Virus record (IMG/VR): IMGVR_UViG_3300048012_000251
Coordinates: 1 to 24,369 of that record
Direction: 5' to 3' (one strand)
DNA: 24,369 nucleotides
From: a virus
A model generated the notes under the pieces. That model was not told the origin of the DNA and made no database searches. It saw only the letters and a program-made list of their open reading frames with translations. The translations under genes and the position numbers were made by a program. Every line of letters begins with the position of its first letter. Position 1 is the stretch's first letter. Shown here in pieces: positions 1,664 through 22,412 of this stretch.

Positions 1664-3880
1664 TTAATTTTCTATTAATTTTGAATGTGTTCCGCCTTGT
1701 TTATATCTAGCAAAACTTATATTTATTTTTTGTTTTTCTATTTTAGCATTTGGAGCGTATAAATGTCTATTACAGCCCATTATAGCTAAACCAGAACTTA
1801 TAGAAGCATCGAATTTAGTTCTATTGTTTATATCAAACTTAGCCCAGTCGTTTAACAGCTCATTAAAATAAACCGTACCATAGCTTCCGTCTTGCTTCAC
1901 ACCTACGTGATCTTGTATATACATTTCAATAGCAGCAGCGTGTGATTGTTTTATATCTTCGCTTGAGTTTGGTATACCACCTACTTCTTTTTCAGCAACA
2001 GATAGTTTATTCCAAACTTTATCAGGTCTATTCATACTAAAACCTCTATAACCACGCCTTCTTAAATAATACAATAGACGGGGTTTATTATTTTCTGCTA
2101 GTATAGGCATCCCGTAAAATACAAGTGCCATTAGAACGTCCTCAAAGAATATCTCAGCAGTCTGGGGCCTAGCTATATACTCTAAAAAGAAATGATTAGC
2201 TGGAGAATCTTCCATACTAAACTTTGTTAAACCGTGTAAAGAGCCTTTTGAGCCCTTGCCGTCTACAGTTCCTGATATATCGTAGCTGTCACAACCAAAG
2301 CAACCCATGTGTTCATTGCCTGGTTTTTTTAATCCATTTTTTAATATAATATTGTTTTGTAAATGAACTGGAGGTGTCCAGCTTAATTTAAATCTACCAT
2401 TTTTATCTGGATAAAATATAACTTTACTATCTTTAACTCCATTTACCCACTGAAAATTACCAGTAGTTATAGTGTTATCATAGTTAGCTTCTTCGTTAAA
2501 ATCTATTTGTTCGTATATTTTAGCTAAATTAAATATACTGTTTTTAGTTTCATCTCTAAAAGCATGTTCTTCAGTACGTGGAAATTGTCTATAAAATTCA
2601 TTTAAAGCATCTCCATCATTTTTTAAACCATCAGCTTCGTTTTGCCAATGCTCTAGTATTCCTATATCTATATTTTCCCCATAGGGACCAAAAGTTTCTT
2701 GCTCGGGTGTATCGAATACAGGTAAGCCATAAGAATCAATGAATCCTTCGTAGTTCCATTCCATAGGTATGAACAAACTATATAATCCTGAGCTTGTCTG
2801 TCCATTGCGGTTTCTTTTTGTAACATCTGAGTTTTTATATAATTTTTTAAAATTATCACCACCTTTATCTAAAGCATTTGATGTTGAACCCATCATACAC
2901 TTTCCAATTACTCTACTACCTAGTCGTAGGGTGGTTTTCGTAACACGCCAGTTGTTGAGGATGTTGTTCGGCCTCTCCCATTTACCGCTCTCGTCGTGGA
3001 CGAGGAGTTTAAGCTTCTCACCGTCGTAGGAGTTGTCACCCGTATTCTTCCAGTCGATCGTGGTGTCGAGACCCTCGAGTTCCTGTAAGGCTTCGTTGCT
3101 GGTAAGTTTTCTTCTGGTAAGCTTACTGGCTGGGACCCTGAAGGCAAGCTCGGTCTTTGGACGATCCATTCCGTCCTGGATGGGCTTGAAAAAGAAGGGG
3201 TAATTAATGGATATTGGTACCACCTTGTCAGTAAACATCTTCTTCGCATCTGGTCCACTCTTAGATAATATTCCATATCTAGAGTCAGAGGATATGGTTG
3301 CCATGTTAACCACCTCGCCTGATGCCATAAATGAGAATCCAGATCGCCTATTCTTAAGATAGCACATCCCATAGGATCTGTGATCGGCCTTACAAGCCTC
3401 CCAGAAAATATAGAATAATCTATTTGACTCGCGAAAGTCCGGTGCTCCAACGTCGATTTTACTCCACTGCAAGTACATGTAATGAGTACCAGTAACGTAA
3501 GTAGGAACGTTTTTATTGTAAAACCAAAAACCTTCTTCCCTACGGGTAAACTCATTATCGATGTAATCATACCATTTTTCTTTAAATTCTTCTGGATATT
3601 CCTTCCAGTCAAAAACTGTTTTTATTTTACTTAATTCTTTTGGATATTCAGATTTTTCCCAAGTATTTTTATTAAACTTAAAAACATTTGTAGGTTTTTT
3701 AGGTAAAGCTATATGCAAGTTTTGTATGCTATACACTTCGCCAATCTGACCCGTTCTGCTTATAACTACAACATCATGCTCTTTGTTATAACCATATTTC
3801 CAGCTTTTAGACTTATTAAGTCTTTTTACGGTATTTATTTTTATAGGTTCTACAACCTTGTAAAGCGATTGCTGGTACAT
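1664..3880 (-). CDS. terL: Terminase large subunit (packaging ATPase-nuclease)
   Basis: This 738-residue protein powers DNA translocation into the prohead and cuts the concatemer. A deviant Walker A, KNRRSGFS (176-183), has its lysine at the early position, as in the lambda gpA type (KSARVGYS), not the usual GK(S/T). Walker B is KLLVHDE (291-297), with D296 and the catalytic glutamate E297. A coupling motif GSTSN sits at 331-335. The C-terminal RNase H-like nuclease shows GCDSYDISG (529-537, D531/D534) and a late acidic residue in KFDASISSGLA (D691). The start codon overlaps the stop of the upstream gene by one base (TAATG), and the portal follows after one base. The DNA of the ATPase core (about 2925-3480) is far richer in G+C, with C-ending codons, unlike the rest of the gene. 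The length and the stretch CYLKNRRSGFSFMASGE resemble crAss-like and flavobacterial phage terminases; that assignment is from memory. Confidence 0.95.
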   Translation of the reverse strand: MYQQSLYKVVEPIKINTVKRLNKSKSWKYGYNKEHDVVVISRTGQIGEVYSIQNLHIALPKKPTNVFKFNKNTWEKSEYPKELSKIKTVFDWKEYPEEFKEKWYDYIDNEFTRREEGFWFYNKNVPTYVTGTHYMYLQWSKIDVGAPDFRESNRLFYIFWEACKADHRSYGMCYLKNRRSGFSFMASGEVVNMATISSDSRYGILSKSGPDAKKMFTDKVVPISINYPFFFKPIQDGMDRPKTELAFRVPASKLTRRKLTSNEALQELEGLDTTIDWKNTGDNSYDGEKLKLLVHDESGKWERPNNILNNWRVTKTTLRLGSRVIGKCMMGSTSNALDKGGDNFKKLYKNSDVTKRNRNGQTSSGLYSLFIPMEWNYEGFIDSYGLPVFDTPEQETFGPYGENIDIGILEHWQNEADGLKNDGDALNEFYRQFPRTEEHAFRDETKNSIFNLAKIYEQIDFNEEANYDNTITTGNFQWVNGVKDSKVIFYPDKNGRFKLSWTPPVHLQNNIILKNGLKKPGNEHMGCFGCDSYDISGTVDGKGSKGSLHGLTKFSMEDSPANHFFLEYIARPQTAEIFFEDVLMALVFYGMPILAENNKPRLLYYLRRRGYRGFSMNRPDKVWNKLSVAEKEVGGIPNSSEDIKQSHAAAIEMYIQDHVGVKQDGSYGTVYFNELLNDWAKFDINNRTKFDASISSGLAIMGCNRHLYAPNAKIEKQKINISFARYKQGGTHSKLIEN
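2925..3480. other. GC-rich, codon-shifted block inside terL
   Basis: By hand count, 2941-3180 holds 127 G+C in 240 bases (53%). Just left, 2821-2880 has 13 of 60 (22%); 2461-2520 has 16 of 60 (27%); on the right, 3541-3600 has 17 of 60 (28%). The intermediate part 3301-3480 is about 43-47%. Codons inside the block end in C or G (GAC, CTC, ACC, AAC, AAG) where the rest of the gene uses A- or T-ending ones. The reading frame is intact and the protein motifs run straight through, so this is a change in nucleotide composition only. It covers about residues 133-317, including Walker A and Walker B. Confidence 0.85.
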
Positions 3881-5261: not shown

Positions 5262-8200
5262 TTAATTAGTGGTTTTAGTAATATCTACGTTTTGTATAAG
5301 TCCTGAATCTTTATTCATTACTTGGTATCTAATTTGTATATACCAATTTCCTGTTGGTACTGTTGTAAGGTTTTGAGAAGCTTTTAACAATAAAGGCTTG
5401 TTGAGTGCCATAACTTTACCAGTTGTTCCTATACCGGCCGCATAATACCAAGCAGCGTTGGTGTTTAGTAAAGTGTTATTTATAACAAATAGTCTATTAA
5501 ATTGACCAGGATAAGTACAATTGGTAGTGTCACAGAAACCTATAGCCGCTGTTGTTTGTGCGGTACTATTCCAGTTACCAGATGTACCACCAGTATTATG
5601 TATTATACACTCGTAAGGTATTATAAAGCTATTAGCTCCTGGCGCTGGTATTAAAGTTGTTCCTGTAGTACTTAATAATTTAAACGCATCACCTGATAAC
5701 TTAATAGTTACAATACGCGTGTCTTCAACTAACTTACCTCCACTTCCAAAAGCTGTACAATATTTAGGTTGATTTTCAGTACTGGACATTGAGAAATAAT
5801 TACCCTTACCGTAGTCACCCATTTTTACGTATCGACCACCTGCAGTACCATCACCGTGAACGTATAGATTTTGCTCCGAAGTGTGCCCAACATTTAATTG
5901 GTTTCTTACGCGCATTGTTCCATTAACATCAAACGCGGAACCAGGGGTTTGCGTTCTAAATCCTACTTTTTTAGCTTGAGAATCAATATATAAAGTAGAT
6001 GTTGTCTTGTCTGCTGTTCCAATATAAATATAGCCTTTAGTTTGCGAAAGAAATAAGTCATCAGGCCCACCACCACCAATAAATGATTCACCACTTTTGT
6101 GATATATGCTCAAATCACTGCCTGTTCCATAATGACTTTTTACATTGTCTCCGTGTGAAGTGTCACCAGTCATAGTACCACCAGCTAGTGGCAAAGCGTT
6201 TGGAGTGTAACTAGGGTCAGAACTAGGCACCCACGATGGTGTTGCGTCAGCATTTGTTGGTGCAAAAGTAGTTGGTAAGGCAGATATATCTACGCCATCG
6301 ACTGTTTTACCAGAAGCCATGACAATATTACCAGCAATACTTACATTTCTATCATAATCTAATAAGTTTGTATAATCAGTATTCTCTGTGCCCGAGTAGT
6401 TAGATGTTATAAATATATTCTGTAAAGGTATTGTTAAATAACTAGAGTTACTAGGCGTCCAGCCGTAAAAATCAACTGTTATTCTTGTAGCTTGTGACGC
6501 AGCACCATTACCAGTGTGTAACCTATTTGTTGAATAAAAATTCATTCCCCAGTTATCACAGTTGTTATCAGTTGTCTCTATTGTTGTGTTACTACCTCCA
6601 AACTTAGCTATTACTCTAGTACTCCACGAACCGCTACTATACTCTTCAACCATTAATCTATGACCAGGATATGTAGAGCCTGACCAGCTTGTTTGTGTAC
6701 CTATTTTAGTTTCTGTTGGCCAACCTGTGGATGGCGTAACAGTAAACCTAAATTTATAATAAGTTGAAGTTATATCCCATCTAGTATCTTGTCTACCATC
6801 TAATAATTTTTTTACGTTTGCTAATTGAGATGATCCGTCTTGCCAAGAACTACCATTCCAGTATTCAACGTTGTCTATAGCTCTATATCTAATAATATCT
6901 GATTTGGCGTTTTTTATAAACGTAGACAAGTGTCTAACACCGCCGTAGTGATCGTGATAGTAATTATTAGAACTACCACTTTCAGTACTAGATATGTTAT
7001 CAGCGTGATATAAACCGTAGTTAATACCTTGAACAGTTAAGTCACCATTAATAGTTAAACTACCAGTAGTAGTATCACTTTGATCACTTCGTAAATATTT
7101 TGATTGAGTAGAGGATGGTGTTAAATAACCAGCTGTAGCGTGGTTACCCCAACCATGAGCTGTATTACCATTAGCAGCTTTTGTCTCCATATCGTCTAAG
7201 TCTACAGCTTGCGATACTGATATATAACCTAGTTTCTGTGCTTGGCCAGAAGATATTGTAGTTGTAACAGAGTTCATAGGTGTGAAACCTAAAGCCGTAG
7301 TTACTTGATCACCAGTCGGCGCGCCCGTGAGAAGAGTACCATTAGCAGTTACATCACCCGAAAAAGTTGCGCTTGAGCTATTTAATACAAACCAGTTTTC
7401 ACTAAGTGGAGCTGCTGCTGATGTTAGTTCTGGACTTCCAGTTTCAACATCAGACCTACCAAAAGCGATAACGTCGTCTCCAATAAGAGCTATACCGTGA
7501 TCATTGGTGCTATTGCCAGGTGCTTTTAAATATAAATAGTCTCCAGCGTATGTATTCCAGCTAGAATATAGTACATCGTGGTTAGTTGCGTTGGTCCAGG
7601 CACTTTTATACATCTCAAGTAAAGAACCAGCAGCGGTTGTTAGTATTTCATCGTGAATGTTTAAAGTACCAGATACATCTGCATTACCGTTTATATCTAA
7701 ACTTGTTCCTTCTAATTCACCATTAGCTTTGATTTGTCCTTGAAAAGTAAACGCCATGTTACCAGAGCTATCTGACGTCCATGTGTGTGTTTTATAAGTA
7801 GAACCGTAATACTGTCTCCAATTAATAGTTGCCCCAGTGTTACCAGTACCATCTAAAAAGTGTGGATAATGGTTACCACCTGAGTCATAAGCATCGTAAT
7901 AAAGATGTCCTTTATAATGATTATTATTACTTGTAAATGTTTTAGCGCCTGATATAGTTTGCGTGCCTGTTTTTGTGACAGCGCCAAGAGAACTAGCTGT
8001 TGGTATTGTAGGTTTATTTAATATAAACGCGTCACCACTAGTAGCATTCCAATCAGACTGTACGTTTTGTTCTGCATTAGATGGTGCATGTGCTGCTTGA
8101 GAATGGGAGTAAGCAGTGTTCCAGTTGCCTATAACTGTTGGACTAACAGTAGCACCACCAATTGTTAAGTAACTGCTTGTATATGCTGTTGAGTTAGCGC

Positions 8201-11200
8201 GTATTACAAAGTCAGCCCCACTATTGTTTTCTCTTGTGATAATAAAATCATTGTTGTCTGCATTGTATACTCTAAACTTGACATCATCATCATCTTGAAA
8301 TATAATGTGTGGTGATTCACCTGAGCCATCGTCTAAAGTTAAATCACCAGTCATAGTACCTCCTGCTTTTGGTAGAGCGTTATCCGCCTTAGTACCTTGT
8401 GTTGATGTTGCAAAAGCACTAGAAGCAAAATTAGCAGCAGTACCTAATCCATCAAAATCAGATTTTAAAGTTGCTACATCTACGCCATCAACTGTACCAC
8501 TAGTAATTATATTTCCATAAAAAGTAGCACTTTTGTCAGAATCTAAAAACAAAACATTTTCTAAAGCAGATCCAGTGTATACCTGCATTTTCATTCTTGT
8601 TTTCTTATCGTTAGCCGCAAATGTATTATCTGCTTCTACTAAAAGACTACCAACTGTTAAGTCACTTGTAACAACACTATCTCTTGCTTTAAAATTTATT
8701 ACACCAACATCGTCACCAGTACCAAAGTTACCGCTACCAGTAATATCTTTTCTTGTTGAAAGATCAAGAACCGCTTTAGCTGTTGCATCATCTTTTCTTA
8801 TAGTAAAATTACCATGAGATATTTGGCTAGTTGGTAAAATCTCATGAACTAAACCACCATCTACTTTAAAGTTAAATCTAGTAGAAGCAGCGTCATTATC
8901 AGTATCAGCTTCTATATAAACATATGAGTTAGCTGCTCTAATTCTGAAATCTACATCATTAGTAGTATCAATAATACTTAATCTAGGAGTATCTGCGTGA
9001 GTAATAGTTACATCACCTGTAAATGATCCACCAGTTTTAGGCATTTTAGCATCTAACTCGGTTTGTAAATTAGTTATAGTTGATATAGCCTGCGTATGTT
9101 GTGCTGGTGTAAATGAAGTTGGTATTCCAGATAAAGAACCATAAGCACCATCAAAACTTGAAGTACCAGCTCCTATATTTGTCCTAGCATTTGATTTTTC
9201 AGTAGAGGTTAATCCTTGACTAGCTGTATCTACTCTAACTCTATTAGCTAAAGCCGTTGCGGTAGTTGTACTAAAACTAGCATCATCACCTAACGCCGCA
9301 GCTAATTCGTTTAATGTATTTAATGTGCCAGGTGCTGAGTCAACTAAATTTGATACAGCTGTACTAACAAAAGCAGTTGTTGCTAATTGAGTTGTGTTTG
9401 TTCCAGCAGATGCTGTAGGTGCGGCAGGTGTGCCTGTAAATGTTGGACTTGCTATTTTAGCATATCTACCATCACCAATTGTTTTAGTAAGTATTGATTG
9501 CCATGGACCCCAACTAGTAGCTCTATACCTATAATATAAACCTTCAGTATTATTAGCACTACTATAAGAAGCCATCTGCCAACCGTAATTACCACTGTCT
9601 TCTGTTAGTGTTAAACCTGTTGTGTGGCTAGTTGAAGCAGGGCCATTTGCGCCTCCTTGAAATCTATAAAGACCTCTTGTTGTTAAAGTGTCGTAATCAG
9701 CATTTGTTGCGGTAAAGTTAGCAAATGCGTTTGAGTTTATATATGTTGTATTTGCTGTTAAACCTGTACCACCTCTTGCTACAGCTAAAGTACCTGATGT
9801 TATATCACCAGCTGCATGAGTATGTGAAGCAGCAGCAAGCCCGCTTAAATCTTGATCACCTGTAAGAGTAGTTCCGTTTGCTGTTATTGTACCGTTTGTA
9901 GTAACATTACCATTTGTAATATTAATTTTAAAATTATTGTAATCAGTAGAAGAATCTCCAATAGAAAAATGACCGTCTTTAGTAATTAAATAAGTATCTG
10001 TATCGTCATCTTTAATTCTTATAAAAGCTTTATCATCAGTGCTTTCAAATAAAGCTACAGTATTTGTTGCGCCAGTATTTACATCGAGAACACCATCAAT
10101 ATTAGCATCGCCATTTATGTCTAAACTTGTTCCTTCTAATTCCGTACCTTGTATTTTACCTGTAGACGTTATTGCACCTGATCCTATAGTACCTGCAAAA
10201 GTTGCGTTTTGTGAAGCGTCTAAACTTAAAGCCGATGTATTATTTGTTTTAAATGTAAGACCGTAAGGTGAAGAGCCTGTTTTTTCTATTCTAGCATCAT
10301 TAGTATTTCCTTGATCTCCAATACCAATACCACTTGTTGTAAAGTAGGCTTTTATTCCACCTCCCCAAACATACTGTAAATCATTATCTTTAAATCTCCA
10401 TTGAGCTGTATAAGTAGATCCAGATGAGTCTGTATAGTTTAATGATGGATTTTGATTTGAAATTGTAATACCTGTTGAAGTTATATCTCCAGAGTCTATT
10501 GTCCCAATATTTACTAAGTTTCTACTTAAATCAATAAATTGCGTTCTACCACCATCACCTATATATAGTCCATTATCACTAGCTGTACCACTATCTGTTC
10601 TAAACTGAAACTCTACTCTATTTGACCAAGATGTATCGTTACTAGGAAAACCATAAGCAATAAAACCACCTTCAGCTGACATTAAAACTTGTTCATGCGA
10701 TAATCCTACGTTTGCTCTTATAACAGATCCAGTGTCACCAGCTCTTAACCAAACAGTATCATCAGCACCTAGAGCAACACCTCTATATTCACTTATTCTT
10801 GCAAGTATTGTTGTTTCTTCGCCGCTACGATCAACTTTTAATAAAGGTACTTCTGTTGTGTATTGACCTGTATCACCTGTTGGTTCGTAATCAAATAGTA
10901 TATAACCAGTAGCGCCAGTAAATTTTAATTTACTTGCTAATACAAAATCACCAACGGTAGTAGGATTATCTAATATTAAATTAGTATTAGCTCCACCTAG
11001 AGTTAGTGTTCTTGTTGAACTAGAATCTGCATATATAGACATGTTCTGTTCAAATCTAATATCTACAGCGTTTGTTCCATCACCAATATAAACATCATCA
11101 CTACCATTACCAATAATAATATCACCAACAGCATTGCTTAAAACTAGATTATCACCATCTTGGTCTATTTTACCAGCATTAGCGCCTGCTGAGGTTTTAA

Positions 11201-11255
11201 ACTGTATGTGCCCAGCGTCATCTATTATTATGTTACTTAAAAATGGTATTGACAT
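5262..11255 (-). CDS. Very long tail fibre / receptor-binding protein (1997 residues)
   Basis: A glycine-, serine-, threonine- and alanine-rich structural protein of the type that forms trimeric phage fibres. It carries standard fibre repeats: MPKTGGSFTGDV (738-749), LPKAGGTMTGDL (961-972) and LPLAGGTMTGDT (1688-1699). There is also a block reading SPTFTGTPAAPTASAGTNTT followed by LNELAAALGDDASF (about residues 600-660), and a VARGGTGLT element near 495. About residues 1430-1610 form an aromatic, repeat-free island (YWNGSSWQDGS, then LLDGRQDTRWD and VDFYGWTPSNSSYL) that could be a carbohydrate-binding insert. The C-terminal 150 residues (from TRIVTIKLSGDAFKLL) look like a distinct globular head. 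No S74 self-cleaving chaperone signature is visible. It follows the G8/beta-helix gene by 10 bases and is the last gene before the 88-base gap. Confidence 0.85.
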   Translation of the reverse strand: MSIPFLSNIIIDDAGHIQFKTSAGANAGKIDQDGDNLVLSNAVGDIIIGNGSDDVYIGDGTNAVDIRFEQNMSIYADSSSTRTLTLGGANTNLILDNPTTVGDFVLASKLKFTGATGYILFDYEPTGDTGQYTTEVPLLKVDRSGEETTILARISEYRGVALGADDTVWLRAGDTGSVIRANVGLSHEQVLMSAEGGFIAYGFPSNDTSWSNRVEFQFRTDSGTASDNGLYIGDGGRTQFIDLSRNLVNIGTIDSGDITSTGITISNQNPSLNYTDSSGSTYTAQWRFKDNDLQYVWGGGIKAYFTTSGIGIGDQGNTNDARIEKTGSSPYGLTFKTNNTSALSLDASQNATFAGTIGSGAITSTGKIQGTELEGTSLDINGDANIDGVLDVNTGATNTVALFESTDDKAFIRIKDDDTDTYLITKDGHFSIGDSSTDYNNFKINITNGNVTTNGTITANGTTLTGDQDLSGLAAASHTHAAGDITSGTLAVARGGTGLTANTTYINSNAFANFTATNADYDTLTTRGLYRFQGGANGPASTSHTTGLTLTEDSGNYGWQMASYSSANNTEGLYYRYRATSWGPWQSILTKTIGDGRYAKIASPTFTGTPAAPTASAGTNTTQLATTAFVSTAVSNLVDSAPGTLNTLNELAAALGDDASFSTTTATALANRVRVDTASQGLTSTEKSNARTNIGAGTSSFDGAYGSLSGIPTSFTPAQHTQAISTITNLQTELDAKMPKTGGSFTGDVTITHADTPRLSIIDTTNDVDFRIRAANSYVYIEADTDNDAASTRFNFKVDGGLVHEILPTSQISHGNFTIRKDDATAKAVLDLSTRKDITGSGNFGTGDDVGVINFKARDSVVTSDLTVGSLLVEADNTFAANDKKTRMKMQVYTGSALENVLFLDSDKSATFYGNIITSGTVDGVDVATLKSDFDGLGTAANFASSAFATSTQGTKADNALPKAGGTMTGDLTLDDGSGESPHIIFQDDDDVKFRVYNADNNDFIITRENNSGADFVIRANSTAYTSSYLTIGGATVSPTVIGNWNTAYSHSQAAHAPSNAEQNVQSDWNATSGDAFILNKPTIPTASSLGAVTKTGTQTISGAKTFTSNNNHYKGHLYYDAYDSGGNHYPHFLDGTGNTGATINWRQYYGSTYKTHTWTSDSSGNMAFTFQGQIKANGELEGTSLDINGNADVSGTLNIHDEILTTAAGSLLEMYKSAWTNATNHDVLYSSWNTYAGDYLYLKAPGNSTNDHGIALIGDDVIAFGRSDVETGSPELTSAAAPLSENWFVLNSSSATFSGDVTANGTLLTGAPTGDQVTTALGFTPMNSVTTTISSGQAQKLGYISVSQAVDLDDMETKAANGNTAHGWGNHATAGYLTPSSTQSKYLRSDQSDTTTGSLTINGDLTVQGINYGLYHADNISSTESGSSNNYYHDHYGGVRHLSTFIKNAKSDIIRYRAIDNVEYWNGSSWQDGSSQLANVKKLLDGRQDTRWDITSTYYKFRFTVTPSTGWPTETKIGTQTSWSGSTYPGHRLMVEEYSSGSWSTRVIAKFGGSNTTIETTDNNCDNWGMNFYSTNRLHTGNGAASQATRITVDFYGWTPSNSSYLTIPLQNIFITSNYSGTENTDYTNLLDYDRNVSIAGNIVMASGKTVDGVDISALPTTFAPTNADATPSWVPSSDPSYTPNALPLAGGTMTGDTSHGDNVKSHYGTGSDLSIYHKSGESFIGGGGPDDLFLSQTKGYIYIGTADKTTSTLYIDSQAKKVGFRTQTPGSAFDVNGTMRVRNQLNVGHTSEQNLYVHGDGTAGGRYVKMGDYGKGNYFSMSSTENQPKYCTAFGSGGKLVEDTRIVTIKLSGDAFKLLSTTGTTLIPAPGANSFIIPYECIIHNTGGTSGNWNSTAQTTAAIGFCDTTNCTYPGQFNRLFVINNTLLNTNAAWYYAAGIGTTGKVMALNKPLLLKASQNLTTVPTGNWYIQIRYQVMNKDSGLIQNVDITKTTN
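7687..7718. repeat. Duplicated fibre module, copy B (partner 10111-10142)
   Basis: These 32 bases match 10111-10142 at 30 of 32 positions. Both encode the reverse-strand peptide ELEGTSLDING, at residues about 1180-1190 and 372-382 of the long fibre protein, and the similarity continues at protein level (DANIDGVLDVN versus NADVSGTLNIH). High DNA identity in such a divergent gene points to a recent internal duplication or gene conversion. Confidence 0.8.
10111..10142. repeat. Duplicated fibre module, copy A (partner 7687-7718)
   Basis: This is the matching copy of the 32-base repeat inside the 1997-residue fibre gene. The two differences are single transitions. The copies lie about 2.4 kb apart in the same frame, so recombination between them would delete about 808 residues without a frameshift. 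Confidence 0.8.
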
Positions 11256-14260: not shown

Positions 14261-16153
14261 TTAGCTTATAGCTGGAAATTTCTCAACAAGCACTAAGTAA
14301 TCTTCAGTACCAGAAGGCGCTGAGCCAAATGTTACAGTAATTTTATTATTAGAAGTGTTACTAGTTGTTGAGTTTTTAACATCAACATAGACGTTTTGAT
14401 AAGTAGCACTGTTTCCATTATTACCATAATGTAATACGGTAGTTCTGACAAGTTGTGTTCCAAAACCGTGAGTTACCTCAAAAGCTGTTGTACTGCCATC
14501 ACCACTTATTTTCTTAGTTACTTTGTTTGAAGATGATTCTTTAGCATCTAATTGAGTTTGAATATTAGACGTAACACCATCAACAAAGTTAAGTTCAGCA
14601 CCTGAAGCAGTAACTGTAGTACCAGAAAGTTTTATTGAACCAGTAAGGTATAAATCTTTAAAAGCACCACCTTGATTACCAAGATCTACAGCGTTGTTAG
14701 TTATTGGTGATAGTTTTGTCGATTGAACTTTAATACCCGCTTGACCATCTGAGTTTGCGATAATAGTTACAGCACCTGATGTACTAAAACTAATTCTAGC
14801 GTCATCACTTGCTCTACCAACTTTTAATCCAGTATTATATATACTTGTTATTCCAGTTTGAGCAGCGTCAATGTTAATTACACCTGAAGTAGCTGTTAAA
14901 CCAGTACCTGCAAACAGTGAAGCAATTTTACCAACTTGTGTTTGTTTCATAACACCATTGTCATTATGAATAAACCCGTCAGCAGCAGCAACAGCTGAAG
15001 TACCAACTGTAGAACCACCATCAAGTAAATCAAACTCTGTAGTTGTTACGCCAGTAGCTCTTAAATCTTTAGCATATGTTAAATCCGCAGTTACACCAGT
15101 AAAACCATCTAAAACATTAAGTTCAGCAGGAGTTGCAGATATTGCATCTGTTGAGGCAGTATCAAAAATAGCAACATAACCACTTTGGTTTGGTAATTGT
15201 ATTGTTCTATCTGCTGTTGGATCTACAAGCGTAAGTTTAGTTTCAAAATCATCAGCTGTAGCTCCTTCAAATAATATTGTATTATTTTCTACAACCTGTA
15301 CTGTTTCATTACTTATTGTTTGAGTACCTGATACTTCTAAGTTTGTTACTTTTAACGTACCAGTGCTTGGATTAAACTTAAAGTTACTTTGTGATTGACC
15401 TGTTTGTGCGCCAGTTGCTGTTTCAACAAAAGTAACAAATTTATCATCATCATCTGTAGCGGCGGCAATGTTTTGTAATGTATCTGTATTGTCGTTTGGA
15501 GTTGTTACAGAACCACCTAATGATATAGCTGTACCATTAATGGTAATACTATCGTTAACAAGTTCTGCGTTCGCAACACCGTTATCTTTTATTTGAACAT
15601 TACCTGTTGTTGGGTGAACAGAGAAGTTGTTCGTGCTAAACTTAGCTACACCAGCGTTTGATGATGATGCTAATTCAGCTTCAATTTTTAACGTACCATT
15701 AGTGTCATCATATGTTGTTGTTATACCTTCACCGTCATTTCCTGTTATTAATCCACCAACAAAGTCTTCAACTTGTTCTTGAGTTAAAGGTGTAGTTGTT
15801 GCTGCAATAGATAACTCATCTCCAGCACCATTTGGTGTAAGAGTTATATTGTTACCAGCAACAAACTTTATGTCTTGCGTGCCACTTGAAGCTCCAGATT
15901 TTGTAAGTCTTAATAACGCGTCGTTATTATCATCTACAAAAGATGATGTAAAAACGTTTTGGGTATTTGCATCTGAACCTGTTGCTACAGTTACAAAGTT
16001 AGTACCGTCAAGACAAACTTTTAAAAGATTGTTACCACTGTCAAAGAATATTGCACCAGCTGCCGCAGAGGGAGCTGAACTCGTAACATGCAGTTTTATG
16101 TTTTGTAGTTCATTGCCGTTTAAGTCAATGTCGTGTAAAAATTGTATTGCCAT
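14261..16153 (-). CDS. Tail fibre protein (630 residues)
   Basis: A fibre-type protein rich in T, S, N, G and A. It carries a repeated ELNxxDG element: ATPAELNVLDGFTGVTADL, TTTEFDLLDGGSTVG and ASGAELNFVDGVTS. This element is common in marine phage fibres. The N-terminal 60 residues (MAIQFLHDIDLNGNELQNIK) resemble a virion-attachment segment that also includes SSAPSAAAGAIFFDS. The last 85 residues (from KKISGDGSTTAFEVTHGFG to the end) form a separate beta-rich tip like those at the C-termini of other marine phage fibres. It follows the 243-residue gene by 12 bases. Receptor binding is inferred from composition and context; no enzymatic motif is visible. Confidence 0.85.
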   Translation of the reverse strand: MAIQFLHDIDLNGNELQNIKLHVTSSAPSAAAGAIFFDSGNNLLKVCLDGTNFVTVATGSDANTQNVFTSSFVDDNNDALLRLTKSGASSGTQDIKFVAGNNITLTPNGAGDELSIAATTTPLTQEQVEDFVGGLITGNDGEGITTTYDDTNGTLKIEAELASSSNAGVAKFSTNNFSVHPTTGNVQIKDNGVANAELVNDSITINGTAISLGGSVTTPNDNTDTLQNIAAATDDDDKFVTFVETATGAQTGQSQSNFKFNPSTGTLKVTNLEVSGTQTISNETVQVVENNTILFEGATADDFETKLTLVDPTADRTIQLPNQSGYVAIFDTASTDAISATPAELNVLDGFTGVTADLTYAKDLRATGVTTTEFDLLDGGSTVGTSAVAAADGFIHNDNGVMKQTQVGKIASLFAGTGLTATSGVINIDAAQTGITSIYNTGLKVGRASDDARISFSTSGAVTIIANSDGQAGIKVQSTKLSPITNNAVDLGNQGGAFKDLYLTGSIKLSGTTVTASGAELNFVDGVTSNIQTQLDAKESSSNKVTKKISGDGSTTAFEVTHGFGTQLVRTTVLHYGNNGNSATYQNVYVDVKNSTTSNTSNNKITVTFGSAPSGTEDYLVLVEKFPAIS

Positions 16154-16898: not shown

Positions 16899-17357
16899 TT
16901 ATTTCTTTTTTATCATACTTGTGGCCTTTTCTGTCGTGCGTCCGCCGAAATAGGCTAATACAACAGCCATCATGACCTTCTCAAAAGTATCGTTCCATGT
17001 AACACCTATGTTAAAAGGTATTGCTTCAACACTATCTAATATACCTGCAAGTGAAAAAATAGTAATACACCACACTAAAACTAGTGGGCGTACGTTTTTA
17101 CTAAGCCATGAATCAGAAGCAGCGTCTGCTTGCCATCTATTTGTTATAGCTTCTATTTCTTTATTTTGCTGATCGTATATTAGTTGTTGTAATTTTATTT
17201 TATCCTCAACACTTACATCTGATTTTGTTATCTCTGCAATAGCGTCCTTAGGTGATACAACACCTTGTAAAACACTACCAAGTGCAGGGTTTATCATTCC
17301 AGCTGCTCCAAGTAATAACTTACCAACAGTTGTTTCTTTAAATTGTTTTTTAGGCAT
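16899..17357 (-). CDS. Holin-like membrane protein (3TM holin type)
   Basis: A 152-residue protein with an amphipathic glycine-rich N-terminus (about 11-35, VGKLLLGAAGMINPALG), a charged central helix, then SWLSKNVRPLVLVWCITIFS (83-102) and a last hydrophobic helix ending MMAVVLAYFGGRTTEK (129-144). The order WLSKNxRPL - helix - loop - helix - FGGRxxEK matches the 3TM-holin family (gene transfer agent and phage holins). Family members permeabilise the inner membrane to release endolysin. No endolysin gene is obvious beside it. It overlaps the upstream basic gene by 8 bases and is followed by the fibre genes after one base. Confidence 0.75.
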   Translation of the reverse strand: MPKKQFKETTVGKLLLGAAGMINPALGSVLQGVVSPKDAIAEITKSDVSVEDKIKLQQLIYDQQNKEIEAITNRWQADAASDSWLSKNVRPLVLVWCITIFSLAGILDSVEAIPFNIGVTWNDTFEKVMMAVVLAYFGGRTTEKATSMIKKK

Positions 17358-17721
17358 TTTCTTCTCTGTCTCTATAAAACTTTTTATCTTTTCTAGCGTA
17401 TCTCTTTTTTTCTTTACCTTCTTGTCTAGCTACTTTTTTAGCAAGTCTCTGCTTTCTTCTTTGAAGTCTGTTTGCTTTAGCGTAATTACCTTTTTCTGTA
17501 GCTTCTTCACCTTTCACTTGAGTTTTGGCTAATCTATGTTCAGCTCTAGTTTTTTTAGGCTTTACACCAATAACTACTTCGTCTAAATGGCCAGACCTAC
17601 CTGTTGTCATATCAGAAGGTATAACACCATCTTCTACTGTTGGTGTTATGGCTGGCCCTGTGTTTTTTAAAGCTGACTTATGAAATAAAGCATCAGAAGA
17701 TTTTTTTAACTTAAAAGCCAT
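17350..17721 (-). CDS. Basic small protein, paralogue of the 231-residue gene
   Basis: I place the start at the ATG 17721-17719 (123 residues, MAFKLKKSSDALFHK), not at an in-frame ATG at 17808. The N-terminus then aligns with that of the upstream gene (MSFKLKKSSDQLFHK), and the stop of that gene lies just one base upstream. The C-terminal half is strongly basic (RLQRRKQRLAKKVARQEG) and shares the pattern L-AK-A--GN--KA-R---R--R with the 231-residue protein, so the two look like products of a duplication. Its centre is unrelated. Nucleic-acid binding or an internal virion role is plausible. No enzyme motif is present. Confidence 0.75.
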   Translation of the reverse strand: MAFKLKKSSDALFHKSALKNTGPAITPTVEDGVIPSDMTTGRSGHLDEVVIGVKPKKTRAEHRLAKTQVKGEEATEKGNYAKANRLQRRKQRLAKKVARQEGKEKKRYARKDKKFYRDREENA

Positions 17722-17722
17722 A

Positions 17723-18418
17723 TTATTTCTTTTTGCTAAATATTCCTTTAACAGCAACACCAACTTTGCTACCACCTCTATTAGCTCTATCTTGAGTTCT
17801 TTTAGCACGCTTAGCTATTCTAGCAGCTTTCTTTTTGTTACCACTTGCAGCTGCGGCTTCGCTTTTAGCTGTTAACTTATTAGCTTTAGCAGAACCAACT
17901 GATTTTTTAGCATCAACTTTAGCTTTTTTAACATTAACTTTAGCAGCTTCAACTTTGCTAACTGGATTAGACTTAACTTCACTAACAGAAGTAGCTTTAT
18001 GTCTTTTCGAGTTACCATAAGCAGCGTTTATTTTGTTTTGAGCATCAGCATACTCTTTACTACCTTTTTTAGAGCTGTTTCTAGTTTTAATATAAGAATC
18101 TAAATTAGAATCTTTCTTTTTAGCAGAAGCATAAGGATCTGCTTTTGGTTTTGCTTTAGAAGCTTTTCTAGCAGCTTTACCAGCAGAATAATCAGAATAC
18201 ACTTCTTTAGCTTTTCCAACTACTTTTCCAGCTAATTTCCCAGCTAAATAAGTACCTATACCAGTAGTAATTGGATCAAGTTTAGCAGCTGAATCAGGTG
18301 CTTTTGATGGAGTTCCTGTGTTTAAAATAGGTTCTGAAGTTGCGTTACCTTCGTTTAATTTTGATTCTTTTATCTTATGAAATAATTGGTCAGAAGATTT
18401 TTTAAGTTTAAATGACAT
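17723..18418 (-). CDS. Lysine/alanine-rich protein with glycine-zipper segment
   Basis: A 231-residue protein starting MSFKLKKSSDQLFHK. After a short linker with GTPSK (35-39) comes a glycine-zipper-like helix, TTGIGTYLAGKLAGKVVGKA, possibly membrane-inserting. Most of the rest is Lys/Ala/Ser-rich, like histone H1 tails (AAKVNVKKAKVDAKKSVGSA, and KKAARIAKRAKR). It has nearly no aromatic residues in its C-terminal half. This composition suggests DNA binding or a flexible internal virion protein. Its N-terminus and C-terminal GN--KA-R pattern are shared with the next gene. It sits in the cluster of small (T/S)P(F/L/M)K-motif proteins upstream of the holin. I do not recognise a named family. Confidence 0.7.
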   Translation of the reverse strand: MSFKLKKSSDQLFHKIKESKLNEGNATSEPILNTGTPSKAPDSAAKLDPITTGIGTYLAGKLAGKVVGKAKEVYSDYSAGKAARKASKAKPKADPYASAKKKDSNLDSYIKTRNSSKKGSKEYADAQNKINAAYGNSKRHKATSVSEVKSNPVSKVEAAKVNVKKAKVDAKKSVGSAKANKLTAKSEAAAASGNKKKAARIAKRAKRTQDRANRGGSKVGVAVKGIFSKKK

Positions 18419-18442: not shown

Positions 18443-19225
18443 TTAATACTTGCGTAATTTAAAAGGAGTTCCGGATGATTTCCTTCCATATTTTAGTTTA
18501 AAAGGAGTGCCTTCTGCATCTCTTCTTAAGTCGTCAACGTTTTGTAGATTAGCTTGTTGCTCTTCGCTAGCTTCAGTGTAATCAGATCCTTTGCTACCTT
18601 TAGTCATATCGTGATCATACTTTATTTGCTCACCAGATCTATAAGGATTTCTACCTTGCGTTAATTGATCAGAAGCATTTTTAGCCATAGCTAATTGAGC
18701 GTCCATTTGTTGCTGTCTAACTTCTTGTTTAATTTCGTTAAACCTTTTTCTATCTATCTTACCTGATCTCATTAGTTTTCTAGCGGATTGTATTGCTAAT
18801 CTGCTTTGAGATTTATTATACCTAGATTGACCTCTACCTTCTGCTGACGTAAATGGATCTGTCATATCACCGTCACTAGGTGGTTGAGGTTTTTCTTTCT
18901 CTTTGTATTCTACTTTCTCAGTGTCTTTAGCGGCTTCATCTCTAGCAGCTTCTCTTTCTATATCTCTATCGTCACCTTTTTTTATACCACTCATATCAAC
19001 AACGTAGTCGCTGTAACTATCGTACTTACCTTTTATACCCTCTAAGTCTTGCTCCCAAGCTTCTTTGTAAGTAGGTAACCTACCACCTTTTTTAGTTGTA
19101 GTTTGTTTGGTAACATCAACTAAATGATTCTGGTCATTAACCATTTCACCTAGGTCTTCTGATTTTGTTTCTTTAAAAGGACTTGCAGATCTTAATTTAA
19201 ATGGTGTTCCGTATGCTTTTCTCAT
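18443..19225 (-). CDS. Charged protein with terminal GTPFKL repeats
   Basis: A 260-residue, highly charged, mostly helical or disordered protein. It opens with MRKAYGTPFKLRSASPFKET and closes with two further copies, GTPFKLK (239-245) and GTPFKLR (252-258). The motif is thus displayed at both ends. The DNA of the three GTPFKL copies is similar (reverse-strand matches at about 18456-18472, 18494-18511 and 19192-19210). The middle is rich in K, E, D, Q and R (QSRLAIQSARKLMRSGKIDR, EIKQEVRQQQMDAQLAM), like a scaffold or linker. Function unknown. It lies 13 bases after the 108-residue gene and 24 before the 231-residue gene. Confidence 0.75.
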   Translation of the reverse strand: MRKAYGTPFKLRSASPFKETKSEDLGEMVNDQNHLVDVTKQTTTKKGGRLPTYKEAWEQDLEGIKGKYDSYSDYVVDMSGIKKGDDRDIEREAARDEAAKDTEKVEYKEKEKPQPPSDGDMTDPFTSAEGRGQSRYNKSQSRLAIQSARKLMRSGKIDRKRFNEIKQEVRQQQMDAQLAMAKNASDQLTQGRNPYRSGEQIKYDHDMTKGSKGSDYTEASEEQQANLQNVDDLRRDAEGTPFKLKYGRKSSGTPFKLRKY

Positions 19226-19238
19226 AATTTATTATTTT

Positions 19239-19565
19239 TTATCCTTTAAATGATTTCATTATCGCATCAGCCGCGTTTGATATTGTTTCATTATCTGATT
19301 CTGAAAGCTTGTTTACTTTGTTTTCAGTTTTTTCATTCTCAGATTGTTGAGATGGTGTTATTCCTGGTGGTTTTTTTCTTTTTTTACCCGCTGCTTCTGC
19401 TTGTTCAAACCCACTATCTAAACCTGCTCTAAGATGACCTACACCTTTACTAAACATATTATGGTTTTTAGCGTATATACTTTTTAGCGGAGTTCCCTCT
19501 TCTGCCATTTTTCTTTTTTGATATATACTAAACGGCGTGTAGTTTGATTTATTTTTGTTTGACAT
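19239..19565 (-). CDS. Small basic/hydrophilic protein with GTPLK motif
   Basis: A 108-residue hydrophilic protein with no recognised domain. It has TPFSI at 10-14 and GTPLKSI at 24-30, a Gly/Lys/Arg-rich centre (AGKKRKKPPGITPSQQ), and an acidic helical end (NETISNAADAIMKSF). Low hydrophobicity and mixed charge suggest mostly disorder. It belongs by motif and position to the same cluster as its neighbours. It follows the metalloprotease-like gene by 3 bases, so it is almost certainly co-translated with it. Confidence 0.7.
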   Translation of the reverse strand: MSNKNKSNYTPFSIYQKRKMAEEGTPLKSIYAKNHNMFSKGVGHLRAGLDSGFEQAEAAGKKRKKPPGITPSQQSENEKTENKVNKLSESDNETISNAADAIMKSFKG

Positions 19566-19568
19566 TTT

Positions 19569-19937
19569 TTATTTTTTTACTGGTTTGTGATTTGCATGAG
19601 CTTCAGCTTCCCACTCTAAGTTATGAGCTCCTTCTTCCATCAACTTTCTTGGAAATACTTTCATAGGACTACCTGTATTTTTTTTCCAATAAACATTTTT
19701 ATTATCATACCTAAGTCTATTTTGACCCATTTGATCATGGTGAGTATCTTCATGTTTTTTTACTTCTATCCTATCTTTGGGTGGCAATGACTTGTCTACA
19801 TATGTAGTACCGTCGGTATTAGCCTCACCTTTTATTGAGCCTGGTAAGTCTTTTAAAAACACAGGGTTTGAATAAGTACTCGTAACTGGATCTAATCCTA
19901 GTAAGCTATATTTATTATTAGGTAGTTTAAAAGCCAT
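19569..19937 (-). CDS. Small zinc-metalloprotease-like protein (HExxH)
   Basis: A 122-residue protein with VKKHEDTHHDQM (59-70), containing the HExxH zinc-binding and catalytic signature at 62-66. About 45 residues later comes LEWEAEAHANH (107-117), where E110 or E112 could be the third zinc ligand, as in the gluzincin arrangement (HExxH ... E). Size and layout resemble minimal gluzincins rather than any large peptidase. It starts MAFKLPNNKYSLLG, like the MAFKL start of a neighbour, and has its own GSPMK motif (89-93). Possible jobs are prohead or virion protein processing, or cell-wall peptide cleavage in lysis; the sequence does not decide. Spacing and burial of the ligands have not been modelled, so activity is unproven. 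Confidence 0.65.
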   Translation of the reverse strand: MAFKLPNNKYSLLGLDPVTSTYSNPVFLKDLPGSIKGEANTDGTTYVDKSLPPKDRIEVKKHEDTHHDQMGQNRLRYDNKNVYWKKNTGSPMKVFPRKLMEEGAHNLEWEAEAHANHKPVKK

Positions 19938-19938
19938 G

Positions 19939-20163
19939 TTAATATCCTTTGCAACCTTTTTTCTTTAATGGTGTTGCTGATTTGTTTTTGTTAGCCATAA
20001 CTGCTTTAGCAAAGTTTTCAGGTAAATTACCTTTCATTGCTTGACTTTCTAACTTATCGTTAAATTTAGCTGCACTACCCGTGTGATCGCATCCTGGTAT
20101 TCCACAGCAGTAGCTACCTGAAGACTTTGATGCGCCTAAGTTGTTTGGACCTATTCCTTTCAT
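19939..20163 (-). CDS. Small Cys-containing protein with SATPLKKK tail
   Basis: A 74-residue protein with CCGIPGCDH at 19-27 and a basic tail SATPLKKKGCKGY at 62-74. Cysteines at 19, 20, 25 and 71, with H27, could bind a metal or form disulphides, but the pattern is not a standard zinc ribbon. The tail carries the cluster's (S/A)TPLK motif. The gene starts 2 bases after the winged-helix gene's stop and ends one base before the metalloprotease-like gene, so it is part of the operon. I do not recognise its family. Confidence 0.7.
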   Translation of the reverse strand: MKGIGPNNLGASKSSGSYCCGIPGCDHTGSAAKFNDKLESQAMKGNLPENFAKAVMANKNKSATPLKKKGCKGY

Positions 20164-20165
20164 AA

Positions 20166-20606
20166 TTATCTATTTTTATCTTTTATCATATCGTCTATAG
20201 ATTTATTATAGACTTTATCTGTATATGATTTGTTTTTATAGAATTTACTTCTTTCTGAAGTAGGTAAGTCCTCTTCTGCTAAAAGTATTCTATATATTCT
20301 TGATATAAGTTGACTGCATTTAAATGATGTTTTATAGATGGCGTATTTTTGTGAAGTTCTGTTTCTTTCTCGCCAAACATCGATCCAACCTTCTTTGCGA
20401 AGCCTTTCCCATCTGTTTTTATCCCACGAGTAAGTGTATACACCCTCTATAAAGTTATTACGTGTAAATCGTGATTTGCAATCTAAATAGATTAAAAGTT
20501 CTAAATCAGCATCTTTAAGATTATAAGTTTTACAGGCCCATTTTCTAACAAGCCTGTAATACTTAAACAAATTCATTTCTCTTAAATCTTGTGCTGTTAA
20601 TTTCAT
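20166..20606 (-). CDS. Winged-helix (MarR-like) protein, possible late regulator
   Basis: A 146-residue protein whose pattern fits a winged helix-turn-helix. Two N-terminal helices (FKYYRLVRKWACKTYNL) are followed by LKDADLELLIYLDCKSRF (30-47), a recognition-helix region FIEGVYTYSWDKNRWERLRK (52-71), and a beta-wing GWIDVWRERNRTSQKYAIYK (73-92) typical of MarR-like proteins. A last helix (SQLISRIYRILL) could dimerise. It would bind DNA, perhaps at the phage's own control regions; this is inference. Its ATG overlaps the TGA of groES (ATGA), so it is translated together with the chaperonin pair. No effector-binding site is evident. Confidence 0.6.
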   Translation of the reverse strand: MKLTAQDLREMNLFKYYRLVRKWACKTYNLKDADLELLIYLDCKSRFTRNNFIEGVYTYSWDKNRWERLRKEGWIDVWRERNRTSQKYAIYKTSFKCSQLISRIYRILLAEEDLPTSERSKFYKNKSYTDKVYNKSIDDMIKDKNR

Positions 20607-20860
20607 TCAACTAAAACTACATCACCAACTTGTATAACTTTATACAAATCGTCTTTTACTTGTATGCTATGACCAGCATGCCTGTCGTAATAAACTATGT
20701 CATTCTTACTAACACCTTTAACTAAATTACCTATAGAAAGTATTTTAGCTTTTACATATCTATTGTCAGTGTCTGTTTTATCGGTTAATATAAGCCCACC
20801 TACTTTCTTCGGCTCGACTTTTATGTTTTCTACTATTATATAATAATTAACTGCTTGCAT
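20603..20860 (-). CDS. groES: Co-chaperonin GroES
   Basis: An 85-residue single-barrel GroES that caps the GroEL ring. Visible features: the YYIIVENIKVEPKK strand region, a mobile loop ending GGLILTD (21-27) with the hydrophobic triplet LIL that docks on GroEL, a central AKILSIGNLVKGV, then KNDIVYYDRHAGHSIQVKDD and a closing VGDVVLVE. It is somewhat shorter than the host norm (about 95), with a compact roof loop. It lies downstream of groEL and overlaps it by 14 bases, the reverse of the usual bacterial groES-groEL order. Its TGA overlaps the next ATG. Together with groEL it forms a phage chaperonin pair. Confidence 0.9.
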   Translation of the reverse strand: MQAVNYYIIVENIKVEPKKVGGLILTDKTDTDNRYVKAKILSIGNLVKGVSKNDIVYYDRHAGHSIQVKDDLYKVIQVGDVVLVE

Positions 20861-22412
20861 TTTCTATTCTAATGTTTGAAATTACACAATCTGCAGAAAT
20901 TATAGTAGAAACAACTGATATAGCGTTCTTGAGCGCCGATTTTGTAACCAAAACCGGGTCAATAATACCAGCATCTATCATATTTTTTTCGCAACCACAC
21001 GTTACATCCATTCCTTCACCATCTTTCCATTGTAAAACTGGTACTTTTGCAAGACCAGCATTATCTAATATCGTAAAAAATGGAGCTAAAACAGCTTTTG
21101 ACAATATTTCTTCCCCTTCATCTTCAGGTGTATTGTTTCTAACAGCATCGACCAATGCAACGCCACCGCCCGGGACTATTCCTTCTTTCAAGGCGGCCTT
21201 AACAGCGTAAATAGCATCTTCTATTCTGTCTTTTTTCTCTTTTAACTCCACTTTTGAGTCAGCGCCAACCCTAACCAGCCCAACTGAACCACTTAACATG
21301 GCTAACCTCTGGTCTAGTCTACGTTTTATATACTGATTTTTTTCTTTTTTTATGCTTTTTTGTACATCTTCTATCCTTTCTTTCAAATCTAAGCCTAAAT
21401 CCATAGTTGTTAAGACTGTAGTTTTGTCATCTGTGACAGCTTTTTGTACTTCACCTAAACAATCAGGGTTAATAAGGTCTAAATCGTCACCTAAGTTCTC
21501 ATCCATTATAGTAGCACCTGTTAAAAATGCTAAATCTTCAAGCGTGCTTTGCTTTGTAGGGCCAAAACCTGGCGGATCTATGTAGTTTACCTTGATATTA
21601 CCCTTTACTTTGTTCATTAACAATGTAGACGATACTTGAGTACTAACTTCTGCTACTATAAGTAATGATCTTTTGTTCTTTATAACATGTTCTAGTATAG
21701 GTTGTATCTTTCTTATATTAGGTATTTCCGATGCTACTATTAAAACTAACGGTTTTTCTAGTATTGTTCTTTGTTTATCCTTGTCTGTTATAAGGTGCGG
21801 TGATTTTAAGCCAGATTCTAGTTGTACTCCATCTACGATTTCAACGTACGTTTGTTCTGTATCTGACTCTTCCATCAGCACCACACCTGATTTACCTACT
21901 TTAGTGTAAGCTTCAGATATTATACCACCTAATTTTAAATCATTGTTACAAGATATAGCCGCTACGTCTTTTAACATCTCACCCTCTACAGGTATAGCTA
22001 CATCGTCTAGGTATTTATTTATTTTCTTAGCATAAGAAGCAATGCCTTCTTTAGTATCTCTTATTGATTCTTTAGCTTTTGTTGCTTCTTTTAATAGTGA
22101 TTCAGCAATGACGGTAGCTGTAGTAGTACCGTCACCTGCTTCTTTCACTGTATTTCTAGCAGCTTCTTTAATAAGTGTTGCCCCTATGTTTTCAACCGGA
22201 TCAAGTAAGACTACGCTTTCCGCAACGGTTACACCGTCTTTTGTTATCACCGGTTTTCCTAAGGCATCTTCGTATATTACACACTTACCTGATGCTCCTA
22301 ATGTAGATTTAACTGCTCTTGCTAGTTTATCTACACCTGTTATTACTTTGTTTTTTGCTTCATCGCCAAAAGATAAGTCTTTGACGAGTTCACTTGGATT
22401 GTGATATTGCAT
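20847..22412 (-). CDS. groEL: Chaperonin GroEL, phage version
   Basis: A 521-residue chaperonin that folds proteins in an ATP-driven cage with GroES. The ATPase residues are intact: TLGASGK (37-43), ITKDGVTVAE (56-65; D59 matches E. coli D52), the GDGTTTATV loop (93-101), IEDAIYAVKAALKEG (397-411; D399 matches D398), PGGGVAL (414-420) and IIDPVLVTKSAL (483-494; D485 matches D495). Two oddities: the nucleotide loop reads LGASGK for LGPKGR, and the apical stretch is GLKSPHLITD (201-210) where bacterial GroEL has YLSPYFIN. The protein ends in NIRIENASS and lacks the C-terminal GGM tail. At 521 residues it is shorter than E. coli GroEL (548). The ATG at 22412 follows an A/T-only leader. Confidence 0.95.
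   Translation of the reverse strand: MQYHNPSELVKDLSFGDEAKNKVITGVDKLARAVKSTLGASGKCVIYEDALGKPVITKDGVTVAESVVLLDPVENIGATLIKEAARNTVKEAGDGTTTATVIAESLLKEATKAKESIRDTKEGIASYAKKINKYLDDVAIPVEGEMLKDVAAISCNNDLKLGGIISEAYTKVGKSGVVLMEESDTEQTYVEIVDGVQLESGLKSPHLITDKDKQRTILEKPLVLIVASEIPNIRKIQPILEHVIKNKRSLLIVAEVSTQVSSTLLMNKVKGNIKVNYIDPPGFGPTKQSTLEDLAFLTGATIMDENLGDDLDLINPDCLGEVQKAVTDDKTTVLTTMDLGLDLKERIEDVQKSIKKEKNQYIKRRLDQRLAMLSGSVGLVRVGADSKVELKEKKDRIEDAIYAVKAALKEGIVPGGGVALVDAVRNNTPEDEGEEILSKAVLAPFFTILDNAGLAKVPVLQWKDGEGMDVTCGCEKNMIDAGIIDPVLVTKSALKNAISVVSTIISADCVISNIRIENASS

Follow-up and report, generated by a model that had tools for sequence, protein, structure and literature searches.

The stretch of DNA analysed here (the window: 24,369 nucleotides of the IMG/VR virus record IMGVR_UViG_3300048012_000251) codes on its minus strand for a 122-aa protein that we assign with high confidence to the gluzincin-type zincins. 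Since almost all relatives conserve its active-site residues, the gene probably codes for a real, working enzyme. The protein belongs to a previously undescribed family, on which no paper was found in the literature, and a gene without annotation in hundreds of ocean phages thereby becomes a predicted enzyme whose catalytic residues can be named. The protease also has an N-terminal peptide in common with otherwise unrelated neighbouring proteins, and this peptide leads to a hypothesis on how abundant Bacteroidota phages might select their internal virion proteins, which in turn predicts which uncharacterised proteins belong in the particle.

The original prediction had placed HEDTH at residues 62-66 and WEAEAHA at residues 109-115 of a 122-aa ORF, and exactly this is read in the reverse complement of positions 19569-19937. 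It was silent on the strand; the plus-strand reading of this interval was ruled out by stops throughout, and the protease gene is therefore on the minus strand. The encoded sequence runs MAFKLPNN...KKHEDTHHDQM...LEWEAEAHANHKPVKK (122 aa) and contains the following features:

19569..19937, minus strand: predicted minimal zinc metallopeptidase, 122 aa
19920..19937, minus strand: N-terminal tag MAFKLP (consensus M[AG][FY]K[LM]), predicted disordered
19809..19826, minus strand: E38-A-N-T-D-G43, the stretch ahead of the predicted edge strand, with E, A, N, D and G kept in 90/90 homologues
19740..19754, minus strand: HExxH (H62 E63 D T H66), predicted zinc ligands H62 and H66, predicted general base E63
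19659..19670, minus strand: SPMK (residues 90-93), the motif meant by the original prediction
19608..19610, minus strand: E110 (of W109-E110), predicted third zinc ligand, kept in 90/90 homologues

Scans of the window protein against Pfam, NCBIfam and PHROG gave no significant match, and neither a signal peptide nor a membrane helix was evident in its sequence. A first IMG/VR scan revealed four close relatives at 78-83% identity, a profile scan added nine distant ones at 26-31%, and wider IMG/VR profiles recovered the family in 527 and then in at least 589 viral stretches. Among GTDB genomes, a strict search pattern matched a single family member (L163), located on the 63-kb contig JAAXIF010000025.1 of a Sphingobacteriales MAG; this contig is probably a phage co-binned with the MAG and a hint at the host. 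Since this match is the only one, the family looks essentially viral.

Although identity to the window protein is only ~27-40%, HExxH is kept across the family. Among 90 non-redundant homologues, H62 is conserved in 89, E63, H66 and E110 in all 90, and W109 in 88. Glu 112 (34/90 only) and His 114 were rejected as zinc ligands, neither being conserved. The original prediction had named WEAEAHA and chosen no residue within it; of its two Glu residues E110 is invariant and E112 is not. The patterns used in the two widest scans comprised EANMDG and TPV.RK-like stretches, and neither HExxH nor WE, so that conservation of the latter two was not built in by the search, whereas the 90/90 obtained for E38-A-N-T-D-G43 is partly due to the use of EANMDG. 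A second, independent sample of loci was collected via the conserved 146-aa neighbour gene. The protease was found in 75/79 of these anchored loci, or 75/78 usable ones, since one of the four exceptions (L225) ends at the anchor gene, and HExxH was intact in all 75 proteases recovered in this way; the two most distant members of the set (L261 and L266) have lost EANMDG and retain HExxH and WE. Comparison with the three closest distinct relatives gave a dN/dS of ~0.11 (0.11-0.13; dS 0.8-1.6). In one clade of near-identical members (L008:698-1111, L009:2767-3180 and L010:2532-2945), HExxH is replaced by EEMIH, the first His being lost and the remainder conserved. These are natural candidates for inactive members, and some proteins of the family may accordingly not cut. 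The active site, whose conservation in homologues had been put forward as a check, is thus what the family conserves, and it is lost only in this small clade. We are fairly confident in predicting that the window protease is catalytically competent in its phage.

The fold was assessed on two predicted models. That of the window protein (50 sequences) was weak, with a pLDDT of 57.6, and that of the homologue L087 (88 sequences) was confident, with a pLDDT of 80.6; in both, pLDDT fell below 50 for the N-terminal 16-22 residues, the L087 model being weak only there (first 16). In the window model, strands occupy residues 26-29, 37-39 and 45-48, and HExxH is located on a helix spanning 53-71; a hairpin and a further helix (108-115), which includes E110, complete the model. 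E110 opens the C-terminal helix in both models. The 122 residues thus accommodate a minimal single zincin domain (~100-120 residues), with strands, a long HExxH helix, hairpins and a C-terminal helix. In a Foldseek search of the PDB with the L087 model, abylysin came out on top, and SPRTN, PprI/IrrE and selecase also headed the lists; E-values were above 0.1, below formal significance, and the leading rows were nearly all zincins. Alignment by VIA gave IrrE at Z 6.6 (the maximum) and 5.8, and also the VgrG2b effector, BepA, ArdC, CapP and Wss1; Z values of such size would not by themselves prove a common fold, and the agreement among the matches counts more. Residue 118 of the window model pairs with IrrE 121, and residue 119 of the L087 model with IrrE 123; judged only from these alignment end points, E110 of the window protein (E109 of L087) would sit on IrrE residue 113, which we take to be the third zinc ligand of IrrE. 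In a library of predicted viral structures, a significant match to an uncharacterized viral protein was obtained (E 2.3e-8), together with phage proteins annotated as 'SprT-like' (E 2.9e-4 to 6.9e-4) and a protein of phage pT24 (E 3.9e-4).

At the sequence level, no match to a named peptidase family reached the cut-off. The weak Pfam matches of family members were to M91, M90, eCIS core and SprT, the M91 effector-peptidase profile being the commonest (18/50 members, best E 0.0022), and in a PDB sequence search selecase alone came near significance (E 0.14), these being short, fast-diverging proteins. The metzincin motif HExxHxxGxxH is absent, the window protein reading HEDTHHDQMGQN, with no Gly or His at those places in the family. 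Conservation and models together make E110 the probable third zinc ligand of a minimal gluzincin-type zincin. The conservation of H62, E63, H66 and E110, the zincin-like predicted fold and the structural matches all lend good support to the original description as a small gluzincin-type zinc protease.

The window codes for a large terminase with 62% identity to that of MW202828, 45% to those of Flavobacterium elemoviruses and 38% to those of Cellulophaga phages. With these terminase relatives, the source phage is most likely a marine Bacteroidota podovirus. The terminase and the genes surrounding the protease are:

1664..3880, minus strand: large terminase, which places the phage near Bacteroidota podoviruses
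16899..17357, minus strand: holin-like protein (GTA_holin_3TM; Pfam E 3.5e-5, 24.7 bits, just missing the cut-off of 24.8)
17350..17721, minus strand: lysine-rich neighbour, likely starting at an internal ATG (MAFKLKKSSDALFHK), with an N-terminus common to the 17723..18418 gene
17723..18418, minus strand: lysine-rich neighbour of 231 aa, starting MSFKLKKSSDQLFHK
18443..19225, minus strand: 260-aa neighbour with TPFKLR, SPFKET, TPFKLK and TPFKLR (4 sites versus 0.16 expected)
19239..19565, minus strand: 108-aa neighbour with TPLKSI
19939..20163, minus strand: 74-aa neighbour with C-terminal TPLKKK
20166..20606, minus strand: 146-aa protein, highly conserved and encoded immediately upstream of the protease module, present in 130 loci and used as the independent anchor
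20603..20860, minus strand: GroES-like co-chaperonin (Cpn10 E 2.6e-7)
20847..22412, minus strand: GroEL-like chaperonin (Cpn60 E 3.1e-51)

The 17350..17721 gene is contained in an ORF called from a GTG (17350-17808), which has a Met at residue 30, and translation probably starts near 17721. Elsewhere in the window, positions 5262-11255 code for a fibre-like protein of 1997 aa with a weak Pfam match to a phage tail repeat. The gene order is conserved in more than 100 loci, where GroEL, GroES, the 146-aa gene, small genes, the protease, the holin-like gene, fibres, further small genes, the terminase and the portal follow one another. In nearly all loci a member of the holin-like family lies downstream of the protease, and the protease was single-copy in each of 18 related records (18/18). 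No copy of the protease was detected in MW202828 or in the 50 kb examined of elemovirus 6-9C.

According to the original prediction, the neighbours share a short motif, and this was borne out: seven [ST]PxK sites occur in four other motif-bearing ORFs of the window, versus ~0.6 expected. That the protease itself carries TPxK held only loosely, as its residues 90-93 read SPMK (one site versus 0.13 expected) and not TPxK. SPMK was rejected as a family feature, because it sits in an insertion kept by close homologues and missing from most of the family. A better family-wide description is the N-terminal peptide M[AG][FY]K[LM], with which 129/146 protease homologues start. It was also found, with varied codons, in members of 33/143 non-protease neighbour clusters versus 0.26 expected, a count that is not fully independent, since the clustering may have separated distant homologues. 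Two adjacent genes of the window have MxFKLKKSSDxLFHK in common and then diverge, and the internal TPFKLR, SPMK and TPLK look like the same short motif. The ejection-type protein, a class assigned from sequence character, starts with SPFKIP, SPYKIA and SPLKLF in G004, G005 and G008 (three of the five genomes examined); that of the window-type genome G003, among the L171-L184 set, starts without the motif. Two tagged proteins (L017:253-879 and L096:5390-5932) contain a Gly/Ala-rich hydrophobic stretch (GMIPGVGNIADAANTALSAGRAGYAKY) like membrane-inserting segments and are possible ejection proteins. The string MAFKMK was found in none of the papers searched.

The N-terminus common to the protease and to unrelated small neighbours suggests that these proteins travel together, perhaps inside the virus particle. 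A link of the protease to the virion is favoured by this common N-terminus and by the SPFK/SPYK/SPLK that opens the ejection-type protein. A dedicated role on the tagged proteins is spoken against by the loci themselves: a tagged neighbour within 8 genes is absent, by a simple pattern, in 55/120 flank-complete loci, and in L197 and L199 a MAFKMK tagged protein is present and the protease absent. Since either can occur alone, protease and tagged proteins are associated and neither needs the other, and the original proposal that the enzyme processes motif-sharing, head or fibre proteins is unproven.

The reading that we tentatively favour, at somewhat less than an even chance, is that of a late-made, virion-associated protease bearing a virion-targeting tag. 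The gene is located in the late block, between the chaperonin and 146-aa genes and the holin-like gene. As judged from conservation and fold, H62 and H66 on the long helix would hold the zinc together with E110, which opens the C-terminal helix, and E63 would activate the water. The predicted disordered N-terminus M[AG][FY]K[LM] may have the role that the capsid-targeting sequence plays in T4 internal proteins; the protease, made late, would then reach the assembling particle along with other tagged, otherwise unrelated lysine-rich proteins and cleave a protein either within it or, once ejected, in the next host cell. The broader proposition is that M[AG][FY]K[LM], together with [ST]P[FLM]K as its internal variant, serves many Bacteroidota podoviruses, a large group, as a virion-targeting peptide that carries fast-evolving lysine-rich proteins and a tagged minigluzincin first into the particle and from there into the host cell; we regard this as possible and, on balance, doubtful.

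Near the original idea is a head-maturation protease that would cut scaffold, capsid or tagged proteins in the prohead, replacing the serine prohead protease. The S78 prohead protease (Pfam PF04586), the only family searched, was not found in 18 related records, which leaves room for a maturation role, and the window protein itself has no Pfam match to PF04586; the late-gene position, the single copy and the tagged neighbours would also suit this role. We nevertheless consider it unlikely: in one relative the portal is P22-like, and heads of the P22 type do not require a prohead protease, MW202828 and elemovirus 6-9C (50 kb examined) are without the gene, and L197 and L199 retain the tagged protein without the protease. 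The structural resemblance to IrrE/PprI and CapP, the lack of an evident signal peptide and the prevalence of M91 among the weak Pfam matches would fit an unpackaged intracellular effector, cleaving a host regulator or defence protein as IrrE/ImmA-type peptidases do, with the N-terminus merely a translation or localisation feature. This is improbable for a gene that has chaperonin, holin-like and virion-type genes of the late block as neighbours and does not lie among early genes, and its retention in 75/78 anchored loci is unusual for accessory host-takeover genes.

That many loci have the protease next to the holin-like gene could indicate a helper of lysis acting on the envelope or on the holin. 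This role is weakened by the separate M15_3 endolysins encoded elsewhere in the genome in 8/18 related viral records, and with no apparent signal peptide or membrane helix in the protease we give it very little credence. The window protein has no Pfam match to an M15 endolysin domain, and a search for lysins in the related records without M15 found neither PF13539 nor PF00959. In two records without M15_3, a 155-aa protein (MKLKVLRFSSQ...LCYTLEDE) is encoded close to the virion block at L177 (G004 57268-57735) and L178 (G005 14816-15283), and this common protein is a possible lytic enzyme of the two. Finally, that the protein is a zinc-binding or degenerate structural relative without a proteolytic role, as the loss of the first His with retention of the rest in L008-L010 could suggest, is scarcely credible for the family, since E63, the expected catalytic base, is unneeded for zinc binding alone and yet is present in 90/90.

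Comparison with known systems concerns both the putative targeting tag and the enzyme. In phage T4, a short N-terminal capsid-targeting sequence is common to unrelated internal proteins, as here, and targeting to the head takes no more than the first 10 residues of IPIII (PMC9026906). The T4 internal proteins differ in being cut by the prohead protease and in the sequence of their tag; the likeness is one of kind, the tag described here being a putative targeting sequence. Among isolates, a homologue was detected in Tenacibaculum phage pT24, the hypothetical protein BPT24_172 (HMM E 1.1e-9), which carries HEATH...FPWEIEA and belongs to phrog_16532. This protein, of 191 aa in a 235-kb phage, has never had its function named, and phrog_16532/phrog_10499, of unknown function, represent a distant homologue with HEATH and FPWE; phrog_16532 was matched by 38/50 family members (best E 1.4e-5). 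In tblastn against GenBank phages the window protein had no matches, and another member matched pT24 only (E 0.04). Cellulophaga phage phi38:1, the subject of a proteome paper (PMC13288928), contains no family member by profile over 42.5 of its 72.5 kb or by PHROG over the whole record. Other small HExxH proteins, not matched by the family profile, occur in Cellulophaga phage phi13:2 (FYHERTH; L268 ~3895) and in Tenacibaculum phage Gundel_1 (LAHECLH; L269 ~42219).

The ImmA/IrrE family (IrrE/PprI, 3dte and 8sln, and also CapP) gave the best VIA matches (Z 5.8-6.6) and has HExxH with a downstream Glu, but the phage protein is too short for further domains, its sequence is unrelated, the Z values are modest, and no Pfam match to ImmA/IrrE was listed for the protease family. 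SprT-like proteins, SPRTN and Wss1 are matched in fold in the viral library, and SPRTN in the PDB list; no Pfam SprT-like match was above the cut-off (1/50 members at E 0.0055). The third zinc ligand of SprT/SPRTN is a His and, unlike these, the phage family has no conserved His after HExxH in the alignments, H67 and H114 being confined to the window clade. Similar in size are the minigluzincins proabylysin (4jiu), projannalysin (4jix) and selecase MJ1213 (4qhf-4qhj), which have ~105-110 aa, a single zincin domain and HExxH. Minigluzincins are archaeal and without significant sequence similarity to this family, whereas the family described here is phage-borne, with 42-49 residues from HExxH to WE, extra hairpins and a signature of its own, EANMDG...HExxH...FPWE.
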